A stretch of 64,000 nt of DNA, from the NCBI RefSeq assembly GCF_018913465.1, contig NZ_JABAPM010000003.1:248001-312000 (forward strand), in the 5' to 3' direction. Made by a program: the position numbers and the translations under genes. The DNA comes from Arcanobacterium phocae. GTDB taxonomy: Bacteria > Actinomycetota > Actinomycetes > Actinomycetales > Actinomycetaceae. The number at the start of each line of letters is the position of its first letter. The stretch's first letter is position 1. This document shows, piece by piece, positions 2,776 through 48,172 of the stretch. Below the pieces are notes generated by a model. It made no database searches, was not told the origin of the DNA, and was given only the letters and a program-made list of their open reading frames with translations.

Positions 2776-3891
2776 TTATTTTTCTCGCATACTGCCACCG
2801 ATAAGATCGATTAGATGGCTAGCGTAGGTCTTGCTTTGCGCCGGCCATGTCAACGAATTGTAAACATCGGGCTGTGCTAGTGTTGGCGGACAAGCCAACA
2901 TCGTACGTAGTGCTCCAATAAGAGCGGCAGTATCTCGTTGATCTGCAATAATTACTGGTGCTTGCTTTTCAGCGAGCATACGTGCGCCAGGAACAGGGAA
3001 TGTCACAACACGTCCACCTTCAGCTATGGCTTCAACAAGGGTTGTTTGAAAGCCTTCAGATAAGACGGTAGGATTGACGAGCGTCGCTCCAGCAAGACGC
3101 TCACGGACTTCATCTGGAGTCACTCGTCCAGGTGCCGTAACGATCCCATCCATTCCGAGAGTAGATATTTTTTCTCGTGCCGCGGCCAGTTGCGCGCCGT
3201 CACCCAACAGTTCGCCGTCGACGTCGTAGCCTTCCTTACGCAACTGGGCAACCACGTCAAGAAACGTATCCCAGCCCTTTCCGGCAACCATTCGCCCAAC
3301 GAAAACTAAATGGTTCGGGCGATTCGGGTGCGCTGAACGAGGCTTAGGTGGAGTAATGGCGTTATAAAACACATCTGCGTGACGGCCACTGAGCTTTTCC
3401 ACAAACGCGGTGACGGCTTCTGATACCCCGAAAAGTTTGGTGGCGTGTCGCAGAATGTAGCGTCCCATCGTTAGATCGACAACTCGGGAGCCTAACCAGA
3501 CGATAGGGTTTTTGGTTGCCACGAAGCCGCTGCCGTGTTCCGTATGAACAACTGGGATGCCGGCTTTTTGGGCGGCTCGTAGCCCGACGAATGACATCGG
3601 GAAGAAACGAGTGTGGATAGAGGCGACGTCGATCCGGTTCTCGATTAAAAACTGTGTGATATCGCGAGTAGTGCCAAAACCGGGAACTGTAATGACGTCA
3701 GCTATCGGCAGGTGGGCTTTACGAGTAATGACTTCAACGCCTTCATCTGACCGGATTCCAGGAGTATTGGAAATATTGAGTACCCAGACCTTGTGTCCCA
3801 GCTGGACTAGTTCATGCGCGAGATTTTGGACGTGGTATTCAACTCCACCGACTTTTGGCGGATAGTTGTTGACGATCATCGCGATGCGCAT
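2776..3891 (-). CDS. Glycosyltransferase family 4
   Basis: This is a GT-B fold glycosyltransferase of about 371 residues. The N-terminus has MRIAMIVNNYPPKVGG followed by VEYHVQNLAHEL, typical of GT4 enzymes. The C-terminal half has HLVFVGRMVAGKGWDTFLD and a nucleotide-sugar site around NPTVLSEGFQTTLVEAIAEG, where the E...E pair is the EX7E-like motif. The likely start is the ATG at 3891, because GGAGAA sits 8 bases upstream. A longer frame from 3945 would run into the rmlD gene. The start is 5 bases after the rmlD stop, so the two are co-transcribed. It probably adds a sugar, perhaps rhamnose, to a surface polysaccharide; donor and acceptor cannot be read from sequence. Confidence 0.86.
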   Translation of the reverse strand: MRIAMIVNNYPPKVGGVEYHVQNLAHELVQLGHKVWVLNISNTPGIRSDEGVEVITRKAHLPIADVITVPGFGTTRDITQFLIENRIDVASIHTRFFPMSFVGLRAAQKAGIPVVHTEHGSGFVATKNPIVWLGSRVVDLTMGRYILRHATKLFGVSEAVTAFVEKLSGRHADVFYNAITPPKPRSAHPNRPNHLVFVGRMVAGKGWDTFLDVVAQLRKEGYDVDGELLGDGAQLAAAREKISTLGMDGIVTAPGRVTPDEVRERLAGATLVNPTVLSEGFQTTLVEAIAEGGRVVTFPVPGARMLAEKQAPVIIADQRDTAALIGALRTMLACPPTLAQPDVYNSLTWPAQSKTYASHLIDLIGGSMREK

Positions 3892-3896
3892 AGTTT

Positions 3897-4745
3897 TTAT
3901 TCTCCAAATACTATTTGCGCGGCTACCGCCCAGCGCTCTTTCCACTCGCCAATAGGTTCAACACCGATAGCGGTTAACGCATCGTGACCGAGAGCCGAGT
4001 AGGAGGGGCGTTTCGCAGGACGGTCGAATGCGGCCGCCGTCGTCTCCAACACCATCTCTGGATCCTTGCCGATCGAACGCATGATTTCTTTGGTGAAAAG
4101 ATTCCACGAGGTTTCGCCTTGCGAGGTCCCGTGATAGATGCCCGACGGCGCCTTCGCGTCCACTAGGCGCACGATCAGATCAGCCAAATCGACAGTCCAG
4201 GTAGGCTGACCGACCTCGTCAGTAACCACTTTCAAAGTGTCGTGTGTCTGGGCGAGTTTCGCCATCGTCTTCGGGAAACAGTTGCCATACTTGCCGTACA
4301 ACCATGCGGTTCGCACAATCAAATAATCATCAGTGTAGGCCTGCACTGCCCATTCGCCGGCAGCCTTTGTGCGCCCGTAGGCAGACATCGGATCAACTGG
4401 ATCATTTTCGTCCCACGGAGTAGAGCCGTCTCCCCGGAACACGTAGTCGGTAGAGATCTGTACTAGCCGGGCACCAATCTTTGCACACTGGCGAGCTAGA
4501 TTTGCCGGCCCAGTAGCATTGACGCGGAATGCTACCCCTTCGTTTTCTTCTGCTGGATCCACGGCAGTGAAGGCAGCGCAGTTGATAACCACGTCGACGT
4601 TGTTAACAACAGTGTTCACTGAATCAACATCGGTGATGTCGATATCGCCAAGGTCAACGGCTCGCACCTCATGACCGTCACGCTTGATCCGTGCCACAAG
4701 GTCAGTTCCAAGCATGCCTTTAGCGCCAACAACCATCCATGTCAT
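3897..4745 (-). CDS. rmlD: dTDP-4-dehydrorhamnose reductase
   Basis: RmlD catalyses the last step of dTDP-L-rhamnose synthesis, reducing dTDP-4-keto-rhamnose with NAD(P)H. The 282-residue protein has an N-terminal Rossmann motif (VVGAKGMLGTDL), the NCAAFTAVDPAEE segment typical of this family, STDYVFRG, and the catalytic YxxxK in SAYGRTKAAGE. Length matches the family. AAGGAG lies 8 bases before the ATG. It is transcribed away from rmlC, with a 129-base divergent promoter region between them, and leads into a glycosyltransferase and perhaps the lic genes. The separate RmlD and RmlC genes are the normal arrangement. Confidence 0.95.
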   Translation of the reverse strand: MTWMVVGAKGMLGTDLVARIKRDGHEVRAVDLGDIDITDVDSVNTVVNNVDVVINCAAFTAVDPAEENEGVAFRVNATGPANLARQCAKIGARLVQISTDYVFRGDGSTPWDENDPVDPMSAYGRTKAAGEWAVQAYTDDYLIVRTAWLYGKYGNCFPKTMAKLAQTHDTLKVVTDEVGQPTWTVDLADLIVRLVDAKAPSGIYHGTSQGETSWNLFTKEIMRSIGKDPEMVLETTAAAFDRPAKRPSYSALGHDALTAIGVEPIGEWKERWAVAAQIVFGE

Positions 4746-41987: not shown

Positions 41988-43013
41988 ATGAAATTTGTGT
42001 GGGCACTAGTTTCGCTAGTTATTGCTGGAATTGCGTTGGTGTTGTTCCGCCCGGACCTAGTCCCTTACCTGAGTGACTATGCTTTGACTTTGCCATTCGC
42101 CCAGATCCTATCGATGCGTTTCTGGATCGGTGCCGTACTCCTTTTCGGTGCCGTGATGCTAGCTGTTTTCGCGCTGATACGCTACAAGCTTTTGAACATG
42201 GGTCGGATCGCGGGTAGTTTGGCCGGGGTGTTACTGGTTGCGAGCATTTTGCAGTTTGGGCTGTTGCTAGAACGCGGGGTAGCTAACCCGGCACAGCTTG
42301 GGCCGGATCGCGGTGTAACGATGTCGTCGGCAGGCAACGGCGATATCACCGTGCTGACCTACAACACTCTTGGTGGAAAGACCACGGCAGAGCGGATCTC
42401 CCAGCTCGTTGAAACCAATGGCGTTGATGTGGTTGTGCTACCCGAGACGGGACATAAGCGGGGTCGCGAAGTTGTGGAGCTGTTAGCCGCCCAAGGACTG
42501 AATTTTCAACAGTTTGATACACATACCTCCCAATATGATCCGGAATTTCGCTCAACGATTCTTCTTGTTTCAGCCGCGCTTGGTGAGTATGAACAAAGTG
42601 ATGACGCCCCGGCTGATTCGGCTGCGGTAGCAGCCCGGCCGGTGTCTGGCGAAGGTCCAGAATTTTTCGGTGTCCATCCAATTGCGCCAGTGCCTGCGTT
42701 GATGGACCAATGGTATTCGCAAACTCGTGCAGTGTATGCACTATGCGAGAAAACAAACTTTATTATGGCGGGCGATTTTAATTCCACGATCGATCATCAA
42801 ATGGCGCATGGTTTTTCCTGTGGAGATGGTGCGCGTGACGCCGGTTCAGGTGCGGTTGGTACCTGGCCGGCTACCATGCCGGCGTCACTAGCGGCACCGA
42901 TCGACCGGGTGCTTCACGATGGTCACAGCTATCGGGGAACCGATGCAGCAATCGTGAAAGTCGGCGAATCAGATCACCGAGGACTCTTGGTTCGACTCAC
43001 TCCAACCAAGTAG
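41988..43013 (+). CDS. Endonuclease/exonuclease/phosphatase family membrane protein
   Basis: A 341-residue protein with three N-terminal membrane helices (about 1-20, 40-62, 68-92) and an outward-facing EEP domain. LTYNTLGGKTTAERISQLVE, VVVLPETG (catalytic Glu), IMAGDFNSTIDH (Asp and Asn) and VGESDHRGLLV (Asp-His) mark the metal-dependent active site. GGAGGGTTT lies before the ATG. Membrane-anchored EEP proteins are frequent in actinobacteria with unknown substrates. Confidence 0.9.
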   Translation: MKFVWALVSLVIAGIALVLFRPDLVPYLSDYALTLPFAQILSMRFWIGAVLLFGAVMLAVFALIRYKLLNMGRIAGSLAGVLLVASILQFGLLLERGVANPAQLGPDRGVTMSSAGNGDITVLTYNTLGGKTTAERISQLVETNGVDVVVLPETGHKRGREVVELLAAQGLNFQQFDTHTSQYDPEFRSTILLVSAALGEYEQSDDAPADSAAVAARPVSGEGPEFFGVHPIAPVPALMDQWYSQTRAVYALCEKTNFIMAGDFNSTIDHQMAHGFSCGDGARDAGSGAVGTWPATMPASLAAPIDRVLHDGHSYRGTDAAIVKVGESDHRGLLVRLTPTK

Positions 43014-43080: not shown

Positions 43081-43266
43081 ATGCGGTTAATGCGAACACT
43101 GATTATCGCCGGTGGCGCCTACGTCTTGGGCACTAAGGCAGGACATGAGCGCTATGAACAGATTGTCGATGTGGCGTCGAAGCTGTGGAATGCTTCCCCG
43201 CTTGCTGACTTCACTGCGCCACATCGTGACACGGTTGACGAGATCATCGTTGAGGACGAGATGTGA
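43081..43266 (+). CDS. Small membrane-associated protein with rewritten 3' end
   Basis: A 61-residue protein beginning MRLMRTLIIAGGAYVLGTKA, like the short YtxH-type proteins of actinobacteria. Start at 43081 has AGAAGG six bases upstream. Its last codons have been changed: here it ends EDEM, while the duplicated copy of its tail at 46975-47063 continues in the same frame to EDDPR and a stop. The native end therefore seems to have been displaced by an island that begins directly after 43259. Confidence 0.78.
   Translation: MRLMRTLIIAGGAYVLGTKAGHERYEQIVDVASKLWNASPLADFTAPHRDTVDEIIVEDEM
43181..43259 (+). repeat. Direct repeat A (tail of small gene), left copy
   Basis: These 79 bases are identical to 46975-47053. 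They cover the 3' end of the gene at 43081. Identity starts at AGCTGTGG and ends at GAGGACGA on both sides. Confidence 0.95.
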
Positions 43267-43817
43267 ATTTCGTACCCGCAACGGGGGCTGTAAGGTGCTG
43301 TAACTTGCCAGTTGAACTAGCAAGTTACCGGATGCGTCATGCTGGTGGGGAAAGTGAAAATATTGATTGGTCGCCACTAAATGATGAGCTTCCGGATGAC
43401 TGCTGGGTGATGCTTGACATTTTAGAGTTGGGTTCATTCCTTGAGAATTTTGCCGGAGTGGGTATCCATATCTCTGATGAAGAAATTGATGAGCTGATAA
43501 GTGCGGTGGAGGACCAATTTGAAAGAGCAGCGTTCGGGAAACTGAGTTATGGGCGCCGTGCTGATGTAACGGAAACTCAATCGCAACCGGGGCTCATTGA
43601 AATTCGATTGCGTGAGCCGTATGAACTTGGAGATGGTAAATATCGGATTCGTATCTATGTGGTTGAACCAGAGCAGCCGCCTTTTAATGGAATTGTGACT
43701 TTGCTGATGCATGTTAAACAAGATGGTAACGGCAGGCTTAATAGTATGCAGAACGACTTTATGGCAACAGCAATGGATAGATGTGACTCATGGGCTGAGA
43801 ACTTTCCTATTGTCTAG
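43263..43817 (+). CDS. Putative HigB/RelE-like toxin of a TAC module
   Basis: A 184-residue protein. Residues about 107-181 match the RelE/HigB toxin pattern: LIEIRLREPYELGDGKYRIR, then VVEPEQPP, VTLLMHVKQDG and a C-terminal helix (FMATAMDRCDSWAENF). The N-terminal half is an extension (DELPDDCWVMLDILELGSFL) not expected of short HigB toxins. The GTG start at 43263 overlaps the upstream stop and has GAGG within repeat A, so translation start may be a product of the insertion; a shorter start at 43332 lacks a ribosome site. The XRE and SecB-like genes follow, the order of mycobacterial HigB1-HigA1-Rv1957. Toxin assignment is by pattern and context only. Confidence 0.62.
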   Translation: MNFVPATGAVRCCNLPVELASYRMRHAGGESENIDWSPLNDELPDDCWVMLDILELGSFLENFAGVGIHISDEEIDELISAVEDQFERAAFGKLSYGRRADVTETQSQPGLIEIRLREPYELGDGKYRIRIYVVEPEQPPFNGIVTLLMHVKQDGNGRLNSMQNDFMATAMDRCDSWAENFPIV

Positions 43818-43835
43818 TGAGTAGACATAAGATAT

Positions 43836-43868
43836 ATTCACTATATGCATCAGTTGCATATAGTGAAT
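43836..43868. promoter_or_regulatory. Perfect palindromic operator before the XRE gene
   Basis: Perfect 14-base-pair inverted repeat, ATTCACTATATGCA at 43836-43849 and its reverse complement at 43855-43868, with a five-base centre. It lies between toxin and antitoxin genes, two bases before the antitoxin frame. AT-rich palindromes of this kind are typical autoregulatory sites for HigA/XRE antitoxins. Confidence 0.7.
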
Positions 43869-43870
43869 AG

Positions 43871-44245
43871 GTGAGGGATATGTTGGATCGGGAAAGACGC
43901 GAATCCATCCGGAAACGACGGGAACAAAATAAGCGCGATTGGCAACTTATTTCTGACCTGGTGGAAATACGTAAAAAACTAGGGATTGAGCAAGCAGATA
44001 TTGCGCAGAAAATGTCAGTTAGCCAGTCGACTATTTCACGTTTTGAATCAGGGCAGATTAATCCTACGCAACAAACTATTCGCCGATATGCACGTATCGT
44101 TGGGGTGAGTATCGAATATCAACTGGTTTTAGATACTGAAATACGTCACGTTATCCAAGATGTAACCACGTATCAAGAAATGCCGCCTCTGCAATACGGA
44201 AAAAATAAATATACTGTTCATTACACTGATAAGGTTCCGGCATGA
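43871..44245 (+). CDS. XRE-family antitoxin-like regulator with C-terminal extension
   Basis: A 124-residue protein. The helix-turn-helix spans about 27-78 (IRKKLGIEQADIAQKMSVSQ, STISRFESGQINPTQQ). It resembles HigA antitoxins. A tail of about 45 residues follows, ending PPLQYGKNKYTVHYTDKVPA, aromatic and poorly structured. In known TAC systems such a tail is the chaperone-addiction region that makes the antitoxin depend on SecB. The start could be GTG 43871, ATG 43880 or TTG 43883; GAGGG at 43873 fits TTG best. Overlaps the next gene by four bases. Confidence 0.85.
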   Translation: MRDMLDRERRESIRKRREQNKRDWQLISDLVEIRKKLGIEQADIAQKMSVSQSTISRFESGQINPTQQTIRRYARIVGVSIEYQLVLDTEIRHVIQDVTTYQEMPPLQYGKNKYTVHYTDKVPA

Positions 44246-44661
44246 TGCTTGACAAAATAGCCTTAGAGCATGTCAAAGTAGTGAAATCTGGAGTGGAAAA
44301 TCTCATTCGTTCAGAAAACGTCCAGATTGACCAAGCGGACAAGTTGAACGTGGAAACCAATATCAGTTTCTACGCTCCGCAAGTTATTAATAGCAGGCTA
44401 CTGGTTGATGTTGAGTTTTTGATTAAAACTCAAATCGCCAACGTAAATATACATGTGCGTGGAATTTATCATTCCGAGGATGATCTTAGTGTGTTGCCGA
44501 AGGACTATAACTGGGAGAGTTTTCTTTCGGGGCAAGTAGTTTCTGATGTTTTGCCGTATGTGCGGGTATACGTTTCTCAGTTATGTGGAATGATAGATAT
44601 TCCAGCGATTCCACTTATGTTAAAAGATCGTGAATCCATGCCGGCGGGCGAGGGCGTCTAG
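44242..44661 (+). CDS. SecB-like chaperone of a TAC module
   Basis: A 139-residue SecB-fold protein. Strand-rich segments (NVETNISFYAP, LLVDVEFLIKTQ, ANVNIHVRGIY) are followed by LPYVRVYVSQLCGMIDIPAI, which corresponds to the SecB helix PYxRxxVSxLTxxxGxPP. Actinobacteria normally lack an export SecB, so this protein next to an XRE antitoxin is best read as a TAC chaperone. It starts with ATG ATG overlapping the antitoxin stop, with AAGG upstream. The last ten residues (ESMPAGEGV region) and the stop lie in repeat B', antisense to a copied APP1-gene tail, so the natural C-terminus may be altered. Confidence 0.78.
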   Translation: MMLDKIALEHVKVVKSGVENLIRSENVQIDQADKLNVETNISFYAPQVINSRLLVDVEFLIKTQIANVNIHVRGIYHSEDDLSVLPKDYNWESFLSGQVVSDVLPYVRVYVSQLCGMIDIPAIPLMLKDRESMPAGEGV

Positions 44662-44697
44662 CTCGAATCCATCTTTGCCACGGATAACTGGAACGCC
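44632..44697 (+). repeat. Direct repeat B', displaced copy of the APP1-gene 3' end
   Basis: These 66 bases are identical to 47069-47134, the 3' end of the APP1 gene (read here on the plus strand). Beyond 44697 the similarity continues with several mismatches and a one-base gap to about 44724, then stops. Confidence 0.95.
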
Positions 44698-44724
44698 GTC
44701 GCCTTCGGCCTTTTATTGTCGCAG

Positions 44725-44965
44725 TATGGTTAAGCTAGTGAGCGGATCAATATTTCGTATTCCAATAATATGCAGATAGTTGTGCTGTTTTCTACCATAA
44801 TAAACACCTTATCTTATTATTTTTTGCCATTTTTTCTATTTGTGTAAATATACGCGCATGCGGAAAGTATTCAGTGCTTGGAAATCGTTACTGATATGCC
44901 CAAATAAACGGATGATAGCTATACTGTTCCTTGTATAGTCGTTCCTATTTGCTGGGAGAAGTTCA
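44725..44965. other. AT-rich gap before the AIPR gene
   Basis: About 240 bases, very rich in A and T, between repeat B' and the AIPR gene. It must hold the AIPR promoter. TATACT at 44919-44924 is a possible -10. No gene was seen. Confidence 0.5.
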
Positions 44966-46699
44966 ATGGCAGAGTTGCATTTACAAAAAATTAAAAGGAA
45001 ACTTCAATCTTCATACTCTGATTTCCAAAAAGAGCTCAGGTCCCGTTTGCCTAATGATAGTGAAGCAAGCATTTGGACAAAAACGCTTGCTGCACATGCG
45101 ATTCATTATTATGGTAATGCTCCAGTAGATGAGTTATCGCGTTTTGTAGTTGATGGAAGACAAGATCGCGGTATAGATGCTGTTTATTATGATGATTTAA
45201 ATCATCAGATAACATTTGTACAATCGAAATGGAGTTCTGAAGGTGTTGGAACGTTAATTTCTGAGACAGATGCTGGTAGTTTTGCTAACGGTATTTCTGA
45301 AGCGATGACCGGTACATTTCCAGATGATAGCAATTCTGCATTGTTGAATTTGAAGGGTATGTTCGAGCGCGTTAACGATGATTATGATATTAAAATTCAA
45401 TTGATAGTTATTTCTACCACTACTTCTGACATACATCCAAATGCGAAGAAGAGGATTGAGGATGGACTCGAACGGGTTTTAGGGAAAGACTATGAGTTAA
45501 AAATTGTCAACCAAATCGAAACATACCAGACGTTTACAAATGAGGAACTTGGGGGTGGATCCTCTTTCGATATTGTTTTGCATGAAATTGGTATATTAGC
45601 TACACCTTATAATGCTGTTTACGGATGGGCTAGTGGGCTAGACATTGCCGATCTTGTAATTAAACAGGGAAAAAACATATACTCTCGAAATATTCGAGGA
45701 GCGCTAGGTAATACTGAAGTTAATAGAGATATTATTCAAACTGTTCAGGATGAGCCTGAAAATTTTTGGTATTTTAATAATGGTTTGACTTTTCTCGCCG
45801 ACGATATTCAGACGCCGCCTCTCCGAGATCCGGCTTTTGCAAGACTGAAAGTTACTAAAGGCTCTATTGTAAACGGTGCGCAAACATCATCATCCCTTGC
45901 TAGTTTGAGGGATTCGGGTAGTTTTGATGCTAATTTAGAGAGAGTGCGTGTCCAGGTAAGGCTTATTAGTGCACGAAATGCCAATGAAGACGAAGAATTT
46001 CCACGACAAGTTACTCGATTTACTAATAGTCAGAATGGGGTTGGTGCAAAAGAATTCGTGTCTTTAGACGATTTCCAGAAACGTCTTCAAAAGGAAGTTG
46101 ATGAGCAATTTGCCAGAAACTATTACATTAGGTCTGGCACTGGATCTGCAGGTCAAAATGAAACTGGCGATTTTGATCTGCAAACTGCCACTATTGCACT
46201 GACCTGCGCGAGAAGGGAAACCAGCAATGTGGTCCGTGCAAAATCTGGAATTGGTGCCCTATGGAAAGACATAAATAAACCACCATATACTGAGATATTC
46301 GATATTAAAACAACGACTGCTCTTGCTTTAGTTAAAGCAGTAGATGCGTTTAATAGGATTGAAGAACATCTGCAAGACCAGATCAAATCTTTAGATGTGA
46401 TTGATGAAGGTGGGCAACGGCCACTAAAATATGGACAAGTTGCACGTCATGGGAATCGCTTGTTCCAACATGCAGTTATGCGAGGATTGAGGATATTTGA
46501 CGAAGCTGTCCCAGTTGTTGGTCTCAATAAACAGTTGGATAAGTTAAATTTAGCTTTGTATTTTTCAGTTTTTGCTAGAGTTATATACGATAATTATCCA
46601 GATACGTATTTGGCTTATCTTTTCAAAAATCAAGAGAAATGCCGGACGGTTATAGAGGCATTTGATCGAGAAATTCGAGAAAGAAAACTTGAAAAATAA
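44966..46699 (+). CDS. AIPR family abortive phage infection protein
   Basis: A 577-residue protein of the AIPR family (abortive infection phage resistance). The N-terminal 110 residues have a PD-(D/E)XK nuclease-like pattern: RGIDAVYYDD with Asp71, then ITFVQSKW with Gln86 and Lys88. The AIPR core has ENFWYFNNGLTFLADDI, GSIVNGAQTSSSL and TRFTNSQNGVGAKEFVSLDD. It is expected to act in phage defence, probably as a nuclease after infection. GGGAGAAG precedes the ATG. The gene is markedly more AT-rich than the surrounding chromosome, a sign of transfer, and stands alone with its own promoter region. Confidence 0.9.
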   Translation: MAELHLQKIKRKLQSSYSDFQKELRSRLPNDSEASIWTKTLAAHAIHYYGNAPVDELSRFVVDGRQDRGIDAVYYDDLNHQITFVQSKWSSEGVGTLISETDAGSFANGISEAMTGTFPDDSNSALLNLKGMFERVNDDYDIKIQLIVISTTTSDIHPNAKKRIEDGLERVLGKDYELKIVNQIETYQTFTNEELGGGSSFDIVLHEIGILATPYNAVYGWASGLDIADLVIKQGKNIYSRNIRGALGNTEVNRDIIQTVQDEPENFWYFNNGLTFLADDIQTPPLRDPAFARLKVTKGSIVNGAQTSSSLASLRDSGSFDANLERVRVQVRLISARNANEDEEFPRQVTRFTNSQNGVGAKEFVSLDDFQKRLQKEVDEQFARNYYIRSGTGSAGQNETGDFDLQTATIALTCARRETSNVVRAKSGIGALWKDINKPPYTEIFDIKTTTALALVKAVDAFNRIEEHLQDQIKSLDVIDEGGQRPLKYGQVARHGNRLFQHAVMRGLRIFDEAVPVVGLNKQLDKLNLALYFSVFARVIYDNYPDTYLAYLFKNQEKCRTVIEAFDREIRERKLEK

Positions 46700-46974
46700 A
46701 ATGTGATATCTCTGTAACTGCCTGGGCTTCTCTGAATAAAACGCATGATTGGCGGGAATGGTAGAGCGTATCTATTTTTCTCATCTCAGATAGCTGGCTT
46801 ATTAAAGTAAGTTTCGCGGTTATGATGTAGCGTAGAAAGCGATGAAGTGGCTGTTATTGACAAAATAATCGCGTAATACCGCATCTATTATTGGAGCCTC
46901 CGAGGATAAGCGACGCAAAAAGCTAAGTGAAAGTTCGGGGGCATAAATAAAAATGCCTAGTCGGAATCTATTCT
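46700..46974. other. Non-coding tail of the island
   Basis: About 275 bases between the AIPR stop and repeat A'. No frame of note, no obvious tRNA or terminator with T tract. It may contain remnants of the donor locus. Confidence 0.5.
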
Positions 46975-47053
46975 AGCTGTGGAATGCTTCCCCGCTTGCT
47001 GACTTCACTGCGCCACATCGTGACACGGTTGACGAGATCATCGTTGAGGACGA
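46975..47053 (+). repeat. Direct repeat A', right copy
   Basis: Identical over 79 bases to 43181-43259. It continues into CCTCGTTAA, which gives the in-frame natural end of the small membrane gene; the stop at 47061-47063 overlaps the stop of the convergent APP1 gene. This copy is thus the native junction, and only the gene's tail is present. Confidence 0.95.
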
Positions 47054-47059
47054 TCCTCG

Positions 47060-48172
47060 TTAATCAACGAATCCATGCCGGCGGGCGAGGGCGTCTAGCT
47101 CGAATCCATCTTTGCCACGGATAACTGGAACGCCATCCTCTTCGGCATCTTTATCGTCGCGGTCTTTGCGGTAGGCTTCGGGAGACCCGTGGGATAGCAC
47201 ATGCTCGACGGGGTTGAGCTCACGCAATGCTATTCCGCGTACCCGTGATGGGTGTTCGCGAGCGAGTTCGTCATAGATGTGTGGATCGTTTTGTCCGTCG
47301 TCGCCAACTAAGAACCACTCAATATTGGGGAACATAATCAGCAGGTTACGAAGCTGGCTTTTCTTGTGTTCTTGGCCGGAACGGAACAGGCCGGTGGGGG
47401 TGGGACCCCAGTCGGTCAGGAGCATGGGACCGATTGGCAGGTCGTTGAGTTGGATGAAGTTCAAGAATGTGGAATACGTGTTCCAGGCTCCGGTAGATAG
47501 ATAGAATACTGGTGCTTCTGGGGCGTCAGCAAGGAGTGTCTGATAGAACGTGCTCATGCCTGGCACAGCTTGGCGGGTATTGGTGTGTTTGACGAAAGAG
47601 TTCCAGGCGGCCAACATGGCTCGTGGTAGCCAAGTGACGACGATGGTGTCATCAATATCAGAAATCAGCCCGAGTTTGGCTTGCGGCTCGACGACCATTA
47701 TTGGAGCGTTGACGGGTTCGCCGGCGGCTGGAATGATGAGTGCTTCGTGCCAGCCGGGTTGGAGCCCATGATTTTCGACGACGATATCCAAGTACCCACT
47801 ACGATCTGTCCGAGTGCGGATCGTTTGGTCACCAATGATGACCGTAACAGGTAAGAAGCCCACTTGAGTGGTGAAGAATTGACGCCAGCCGCGTTCGGCT
47901 TCGGCGGCTTTCTCTTGGGCTAGGACGGCAATTTCTTGTACCACGTTACCGGCATATTTATGTGTCAAATTTGGTAAGAACGGCAACGTAAAAGGTTTTT
48001 TCTCCGCCTGTGGATCAGCCATAACTGCGCGAGCAAGCACGCGAACTGCACTGGTTGAGCCGTATCCGCTATAGCCAATGATTTGTGGAAGCCAACCGGC
48101 ATGGCGACGCTTGACGATGCCACGGCGGTTAACCGTGTCTTCGATTGTCCGTGCAATATGTGCCAAGCCCAT
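47060..48172 (-). CDS. APP1-domain (DUF2183) phosphatase
   Basis: A 370-residue protein with the APP1 catalytic domain of phosphatidate phosphatases. LGLISDIDDTIVVTWLPRAM contains DxDxT, with VFYLSTGAWNTYSTFLNFI, GPMLLTDWGPTPTGLFRSG and KKSQLRNLLIMFPNIEWFLV then GDDGQND. In bacteria such proteins may act on lipids or phosphorylated glycans. Its 3' end is the native copy of repeat B (47069-47134). The stop overlaps the native stop of the truncated small gene. Confidence 0.88.
   Translation of the reverse strand: MGLAHIARTIEDTVNRRGIVKRRHAGWLPQIIGYSGYGSTSAVRVLARAVMADPQAEKKPFTLPFLPNLTHKYAGNVVQEIAVLAQEKAAEAERGWRQFFTTQVGFLPVTVIIGDQTIRTRTDRSGYLDIVVENHGLQPGWHEALIIPAAGEPVNAPIMVVEPQAKLGLISDIDDTIVVTWLPRAMLAAWNSFVKHTNTRQAVPGMSTFYQTLLADAPEAPVFYLSTGAWNTYSTFLNFIQLNDLPIGPMLLTDWGPTPTGLFRSGQEHKKSQLRNLLIMFPNIEWFLVGDDGQNDPHIYDELAREHPSRVRGIALRELNPVEHVLSHGSPEAYRKDRDDKDAEEDGVPVIRGKDGFELDALARRHGFVD
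47069..47134 (-). repeat. Direct repeat B, native copy in the APP1 gene
   Basis: The 66 bases at the 3' end of the APP1 gene that are copied at 44632-44697 as B'. Confidence 0.95.

Follow-up and report, generated by a model that had tools for sequence, protein, structure and literature searches.

How small defence modules that lack a recombinase move between chromosomes is poorly resolved. A locus of Arcanobacterium phocae raises this question directly: two sets of defence-like genes lie there between duplicated ends of the same two neighbouring genes, and we asked how this arrangement came about. For this we analysed a 64,000-nucleotide stretch of the genome, referred to below as the window, and compared it with 8 other genomes of the genus; the window species itself is represented by one draft genome. 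Genomes and loci used for comparison are given as G and L numbers.

Layout of the locus

The left flank of the locus is a membrane endonuclease/exonuclease/phosphatase-family gene (41988–43013, + strand; PF03372, E = 2e-15) that is syntenic in relatives. It is followed by gene A (43081–43266, +), a conserved small gene of 61 codons that tblastn placed next to the APP1 gene in most loci tested across the family. The right flank is the intact, convergent APP1-domain gene (47060–48172, –; PF09949, E = 2e-48), which is phosphatidate phosphatase-like. The 3' ends of both genes are duplicated. Repeat A, the 3' end of gene A, occurs at 43181–43259 and again, as an isolated gene end that we call A', at 46975–47053 (both +), and the two copies are identical at 79 of 79 positions. 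Repeat B, the 3' end of the APP1 gene, is found in the intact gene at 47069–47134 and as a truncated copy, B', at 44632–44697, with identity at 66 of 66 positions; over a longer span (44632–44714 against 47069–47151, both –) identity is 94% across 83 bp. Alignment thus bore out the positions and lengths that a first-pass annotation had given for both repeats. In decayed form B' reaches about 44735, in a local alignment that was equalled by 50 of 5000 shuffles. Repeat A has two copies in the entire 1.86-Mb genome. Because A/A' and B/B' are the sole direct repeats in the 64-kb window that have a 20-mer in common, a chance origin is excluded.

Between A and B' lie three genes, X1, X2, and X3, collectively X. 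Between B' and A' lies a single AIPR gene, Y (44966–46699, +; 577 aa), set in about 500 bp of unrelated, AT-rich DNA that is unique to the window (44736–44965 on its left and 46700–46974 on its right). The layout is therefore A-X-B', Y, and A'-B, head to tail. The left A copy ends in GACGAGATGTGA; the GTG start of X1 and the stop of gene A overlap there, and the stop codon of X3 falls within B'. The right A copy ends in GACGATCCTCGTTAATCAACGAATCC and, as had been noted earlier, the convergent genes have overlapping stop codons at this pair.

Relatives carry two states of the same junction

Identity of the APP1 gene to that of the window is 97% in G004 (the sister species), 92% in G001, 84% in G003, about 80% in G005 and G006, and lower in the rest. 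Two states of the junction between gene A and the APP1 gene were seen among these relatives. In G004, G005, and G006 the three X genes sit flush between the gene ends (A-X-B), with the APP1 stop inside X3 and the X3 stop in the antisense strand of the APP1 gene. By contrast, G001 (locus L036) has a plain junction consisting of the A tail, a short spacer, and the APP1 end, with no X. The first-pass annotation had predicted such a plain junction and had called for a search for genomes with X alone; both exist. About 15 bp of the plain junction are replaced in the X allele. Gene A has been lost from G003, and G002, G007, and G008 have no X at this site.

When the window is set against these two states, its left half (A-X-B') corresponds to the G004 allele and its right half (A'-B) to the plain allele of G001. 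The two copies of the APP1 end differ accordingly. B' departs from the B of the sister species at one position in about 85 bp and shares the GCCGTCGCC haplotype with it, whereas B has the other haplotype. Position 44698 is G in 4 of 4 X alleles, B' included, and A in 3 of 3 compared plain junctions, B included; as a marker linked to X it supports the two-allele reading. Decay in B' is confined to its last ~25 bp. The divergent tail of B' had earlier been put down either to a foreign allele or to decay. Decay does account for these last ~25 bp, and the idea of a foreign allele is rejected by the haplotype common to the sister species. It had also been proposed that the right pair is the native one. 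The plain junction of G001 agrees with this, but the left half is equally native, the sister species having A-X-B.

The complete A-X-B'-Y-A'-B layout, rather than being common to all relatives, was found in none of the 8 other genomes of the genus, and a second A tail was absent from X-bearing and plain relatives alike. Together, these data make it likely that two alleles of one junction, one X-bearing and one plain, lie in tandem at the locus, with the AIPR gene captured at the seam. That both alleles occur as a polymorphism within the species, and that loss products arise from the tandem, we infer from the one draft genome of the species.

The surroundings of this junction also vary elsewhere. 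In the Trueperella loci L005, L006, and L007 and the Flaviflexus locus L024 the junction is occupied by a different gene, of about 320 aa, which lies between gene A (or its place) and the APP1 gene and which, judged by eye, resembles an ADP-ribosylglycohydrolase. In G002 and G008 (L041 and L042) about 8 kb of extra DNA lies upstream of the junction, between the endonuclease/phosphatase-family gene and gene A.

X resembles a toxin-antitoxin-chaperone operon

X1 (43263–43817, +; 184 aa), X2 (43871–44245, +; likely ATG start at 43880), and X3 (44242–44661, +; 139 aa, with its stop codon supplied by B') are adjacent on one strand, and the same order of three genes is kept at the A|B junction in 4 species. 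It recurs elsewhere: in G068, where the first gene is truncated, and in a second operon in each of G001 and G004. X is probably an operon of the toxin-antitoxin-chaperone (TAC) type, judging from its gene order and domain matches, in which X1 would be the toxin, X2 an HTH antitoxin and repressor, and X3 a SecB-like chaperone of X2. This agrees with the first-pass annotation, which had called X TAC-like and Y an AIPR gene.

The chaperone gave the most direct match. With a profile built from X3 and its relatives, the best solved relative was Rv1957, the TAC chaperone of Mycobacterium tuberculosis (E = 7.7e-5); this match was seen because the profile was more diverse. X3 alone had no Pfam match and a weak match to the PADLOC model PD-T4-9_C (E = 0.005), and the chaperone of the second operon in G004 matched the same model at E = 0.0005. 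We take the PD-T4-9_C models to represent CmdTAC. A profile alignment of X3 with Escherichia coli SecB was not significant. At the level of profile comparison, these results show X3 to be SecB-like.

X2 has an HTH_3 domain (E = 8e-15) followed by a tail of ~36 residues, and HigA antitoxins are among its relatives in the PDB. On the 5' side of X2 lies a perfect dyad (43835–43869) with 15-bp arms and a 5-bp loop, TATTCACTATATGCA-TCAGT-TGCATATAGTGAATA. The dyad is kept in 4 species, in G006 with a compensatory change on both sides, and its inner core is also found 5' of the X2 relative in G068. This conservation points to the dyad as the probable operator of X2.

X1, the presumed toxin, has orthologues at the same site in three species and no match in Pfam, PADLOC, NCBIfam, or the PDB. 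Its structure model was of low confidence (pLDDT 54) and gave no fold above Z 4.4; the lists from fold searches with the weak single-sequence models of X1 and X3 held no known toxin fold, a result that is not evidence of absence. X1 is about 26% identical overall to the toxin-like protein of the second operon in G001, and the two have in common an R-x-R-x-Y-x-x-E-P core and a C-terminal A-x-x-R-x-x-x-W motif. Read by eye, the C-terminal half of X1 looks like a RelE/HigB toxin, a resemblance that offers a lead but does not amount to a test. X is extremely rare: four genomes, all of one genus, have it, as does one further relative. Searches across the class and the phylum (~400 genomes each) found no X1 or X3 relatives beyond the window genome, and scans of IMG/VR found none.

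Second operons occupy another tight junction

Scanning the genus with the PD-T4-9_C model led to an independent operon with the same order in G001, encoding a toxin-like protein of 188 aa, an HTH protein of 148 aa, and a SecB-like protein of 141 aa. It lies flush between two genes that we call rmlD and glycosyltransferase, names that, like L17 below, come from reading the proteins and not from a family search. Such a second operon is present at this junction in G001 (L092, 1091–4472) and G004 (L093, 6549–9968). In the window the rmlD/glycosyltransferase pair is adjacent and empty (3897–4745 and 2776–3945), as it is in G006, and G005 and G003 have other genes there. The second operon, like X, is thus present or absent at a tight junction. 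In G068, apparently the genome of Arcanobacterium bovis to judge from agreeing APP1 coordinates, the operon (L079, 6999–8020) directly follows a ribosomal L17-like gene and the terminator-like hairpin of that gene; the X2 and X3 relatives in this operon are intact and its X1 is cut to the C-terminal part.

Comparison of the second operons of G001 (L092, 2208–3672) and G004 (L093, 7349–8819) showed that the DNA for the toxin and the HTH part of the antitoxin is 94–100% identical, but that identity falls to ~42–67% in the antitoxin tail and the SecB-like chaperone. As read from this alignment, the two operons differ by a natural swap of the chaperone along with the antitoxin tail. This matches laboratory work in which tail and chaperone could be transferred as a unit (PMC5105189).

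Y is found only in the window among genomes of the genus

Y has a PF10592 AIPR domain (E = 9e-37) and matches an AbiU model (E = 4e-31) and, over its full length, the Abi-alpha family phrog_1841 (E = 7e-67). It probably acts as an abortive-infection effector and is a candidate anti-phage gene, a function and defence role that we infer from these family matches. Neither Y nor its noncoding flanks occur in any of the other 8 genomes of the genus. Among 213 family genomes the only close AIPR relative, at 70% identity, is in G191, of the Trueperella group. It lies elsewhere in that genome (L077, C1:2080000-2099000), with type I restriction genes and fragments of broken transposases next to it, and has the coding region alone in common with the window, with no common flanks. 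The AIPR relatives encoded by phages, plasmids, and viral contigs reach 32% identity at best and give no clue to where Y came from.

X is resident in the lineage and the duplication appears young

The X genes are 92–94% identical to those of G004 and the flanks 90–95%. X has therefore diverged from the sister species about as much as its surroundings and is taken to be resident in this lineage. The A tail differs from that of G004 by 10%, yet A and A' are the same. For a duplication dating back to the split from G004, the chance of 0 differences in 79 positions between A and A' would be 2e-4. The duplication thus seems to postdate the species split, unless gene conversion between A and A' has made it look young.

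X has also been exchanged between species. In G006, X is 91–98% like that of G004, while most of the flanking segments are 62–78% like G004 and resemble G005 instead. The edges of this tract, at ~43180 and 44620–44632, are the gene-end positions where the repeats of the window begin. Its high identity and sharp edges show horizontal exchange of X between species as a homologous tract bounded at gene ends.

How the tandem may have formed

The tandem most likely arose when DNA arrived from a conspecific with the other allele and joined by homologous recombination on one side and by an illegitimate joint on the other. A circle carrying the A tail, X, B', and Y, integrated via one crossover in A, would be another route. 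Any history has to link an X allele to a plain allele through Y, and at the least this takes two illegitimate joints (B'/Y and Y/A') and a single homologous crossover. Either a plain recipient took up A-X-B'-Y or an A-X-B recipient took up Y-A'-B; the two variants are equally costly, and cost does not distinguish the direction of transfer. The second is slightly favoured because the sister species has A-X-B. The first-pass annotation had proposed one crossover between A-B and A-X-B-Y. The layout does fit recombination between an X-bearing and a plain allele, but the proposed crossover is one of these two equally costly histories.

The decayed or rejoined last ~25 bp of B' fit an illegitimate seam. 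One finding runs against the tandem-allele model, namely that changes cluster in these last ~25 bp of B' and none occur in the 79 bp of A'. The B'/Y and Y/A' joints may thus differ in age or in the way they formed. The tandem should also be open to resolution. Recombination between A and A' would leave a plain junction with X and Y lost, and recombination between B' and B would leave A-X-B with Y and A' lost; both predicted products are allele states present in relatives. Losing X through recombination of A with A' would carry a penalty if X1 is a toxin, and this could stabilise Y.

We weighed several explanations for the layout. In a Campbell-type single crossover, a plain A-B recipient would have received the circle described above by exchange within the A tail. 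One homologous event then yields the exact layout, complete identity of A and A' follows naturally, and the plain junction ends up on the right. We nonetheless find this doubtful, since X has diverged from the sister species like the rest of the locus and need not be an arrival, the circle itself requires two illegitimate joints (B'/Y and Y/A), and no close plasmid relative of Y was found. That an A-X-B recipient took up linear Y-A'-B-APP1 DNA, by homology-facilitated illegitimate recombination that was homologous on the APP1 side and illegitimate inside B', is quite possible, if short of probable. It starts from the state of the sister species and explains why B' has a sister-like haplotype with a ragged, decayed seam, and the mechanism is known from transformable bacteria and has been proposed for the effector-immunity arrays of Vibrio (PMC3240628, PMC5361080). 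It requires, on the other hand, that gene A had already been truncated by Y in the donor, and no such donor was found.

A small site-specific integrative element seems very unlikely. It would have used the 3' end of gene A as its attachment site, restored that end, and displaced the 79-bp end to the far side, with the integrase acting in trans. A duplicated gene 3' end around cargo is the classic look of such elements, and three integrase-family matches lie elsewhere in the genome. Against this, the insert holds no recombinase, X is at the same place in three species without A' or Y, a single att site leaves the second duplicated gene end, B', unexplained, and the X exchange seen in G006 takes the form of a homologous tract. 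As had been claimed at first pass, there is no integrase or transposase between 43181 and 47151. We rejected an integrase/att reading on this lack of a recombinase and of any att-like duplication in X-bearing or plain relatives. A transposon or IS was rejected too; the insert ends have no inverted repeats, and the repeats on either side are stretches of gene sequence 79 and 66 bp long. Least probable of all is an assembly artefact that joined alleles of a mixed culture. Repeats of 66–79 bp can confuse short-read assemblers and the genome is a draft of 11 contigs, but estimated contamination is 0.15%, collapse of the repeats alone cannot create the B'/Y and Y/A' joints, which are in unique sequence, and the seam copies differ as real alleles would. 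A tandem of the two junction alleles, with Y at the seam, is thus the reading that we carry into the discussion.

Discussion

X is like known TAC systems (HigB1-HigA1-Rv1957 of M. tuberculosis and CmdTAC) in having three same-strand genes in the order toxin-antitoxin-chaperone, an HTH antitoxin with a C-terminal tail, and a SecB-like chaperone for which Rv1957 is the best solved match. It differs in that X1, at 184 aa, is longer than a typical HigB and is without a match to a known toxin family, and in its tight fit between two core genes, one of which has the stop codon of the operon in its antisense strand. Y resembles AIPR, Abi-alpha, and AbiU proteins in its Pfam domain and its full-length PHROG match. 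It stands alone, without a restriction or MZA partner, whereas its G191 relative is beside a type I restriction system.

In the type VI secretion effector-immunity arrays of Vibrio cholerae and the displaced 3' ends of Rhs genes, modules are proposed to enter by one-sided homology and illegitimate joining, with older gene ends pushed downstream and left as short remnants (PMC5361080). The locus studied here is similar both in the one-sided homology proposed for it and in its short gene-end remnants. It is unlike those arrays in that an unrelated core junction keeps its two allele states whole and in that the cargo is a TAC operon and an AIPR gene and not effectors. Defence hotspots between core genes are described in Pseudomonas aeruginosa (PMC10250203) and E. 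coli (PMC10121019). As in these hotspots, defence-like cargo lies between conserved core genes and is present or absent depending on the genome; in contrast to them, there is one small operon per site, no spacer region, and the edges of swaps lie inside gene ends.

Tight junctions between core genes may serve as docking sites for recombinase-less TAC operons, which would be exchanged by homologous recombination via the ends of the neighbouring genes, with addiction stabilising a passenger AIPR gene between duplicated ends. Deletion between A and A' would then be selected against because the antitoxin would go with it. We put this forward tentatively, as a rather unlikely generalisation.

The spot looks like a snapshot of defence-gene swapping by ordinary recombination, and not by a transposon or an integrase. 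Both end states of a single exchange can be seen there, along with a state that resembles an intermediate, and the boundaries are precise. This makes two ideas testable: that neighbouring gene ends may supply the homology on which modules travel, and that a TAC operon may protect linked defence genes from deletion between short repeats.
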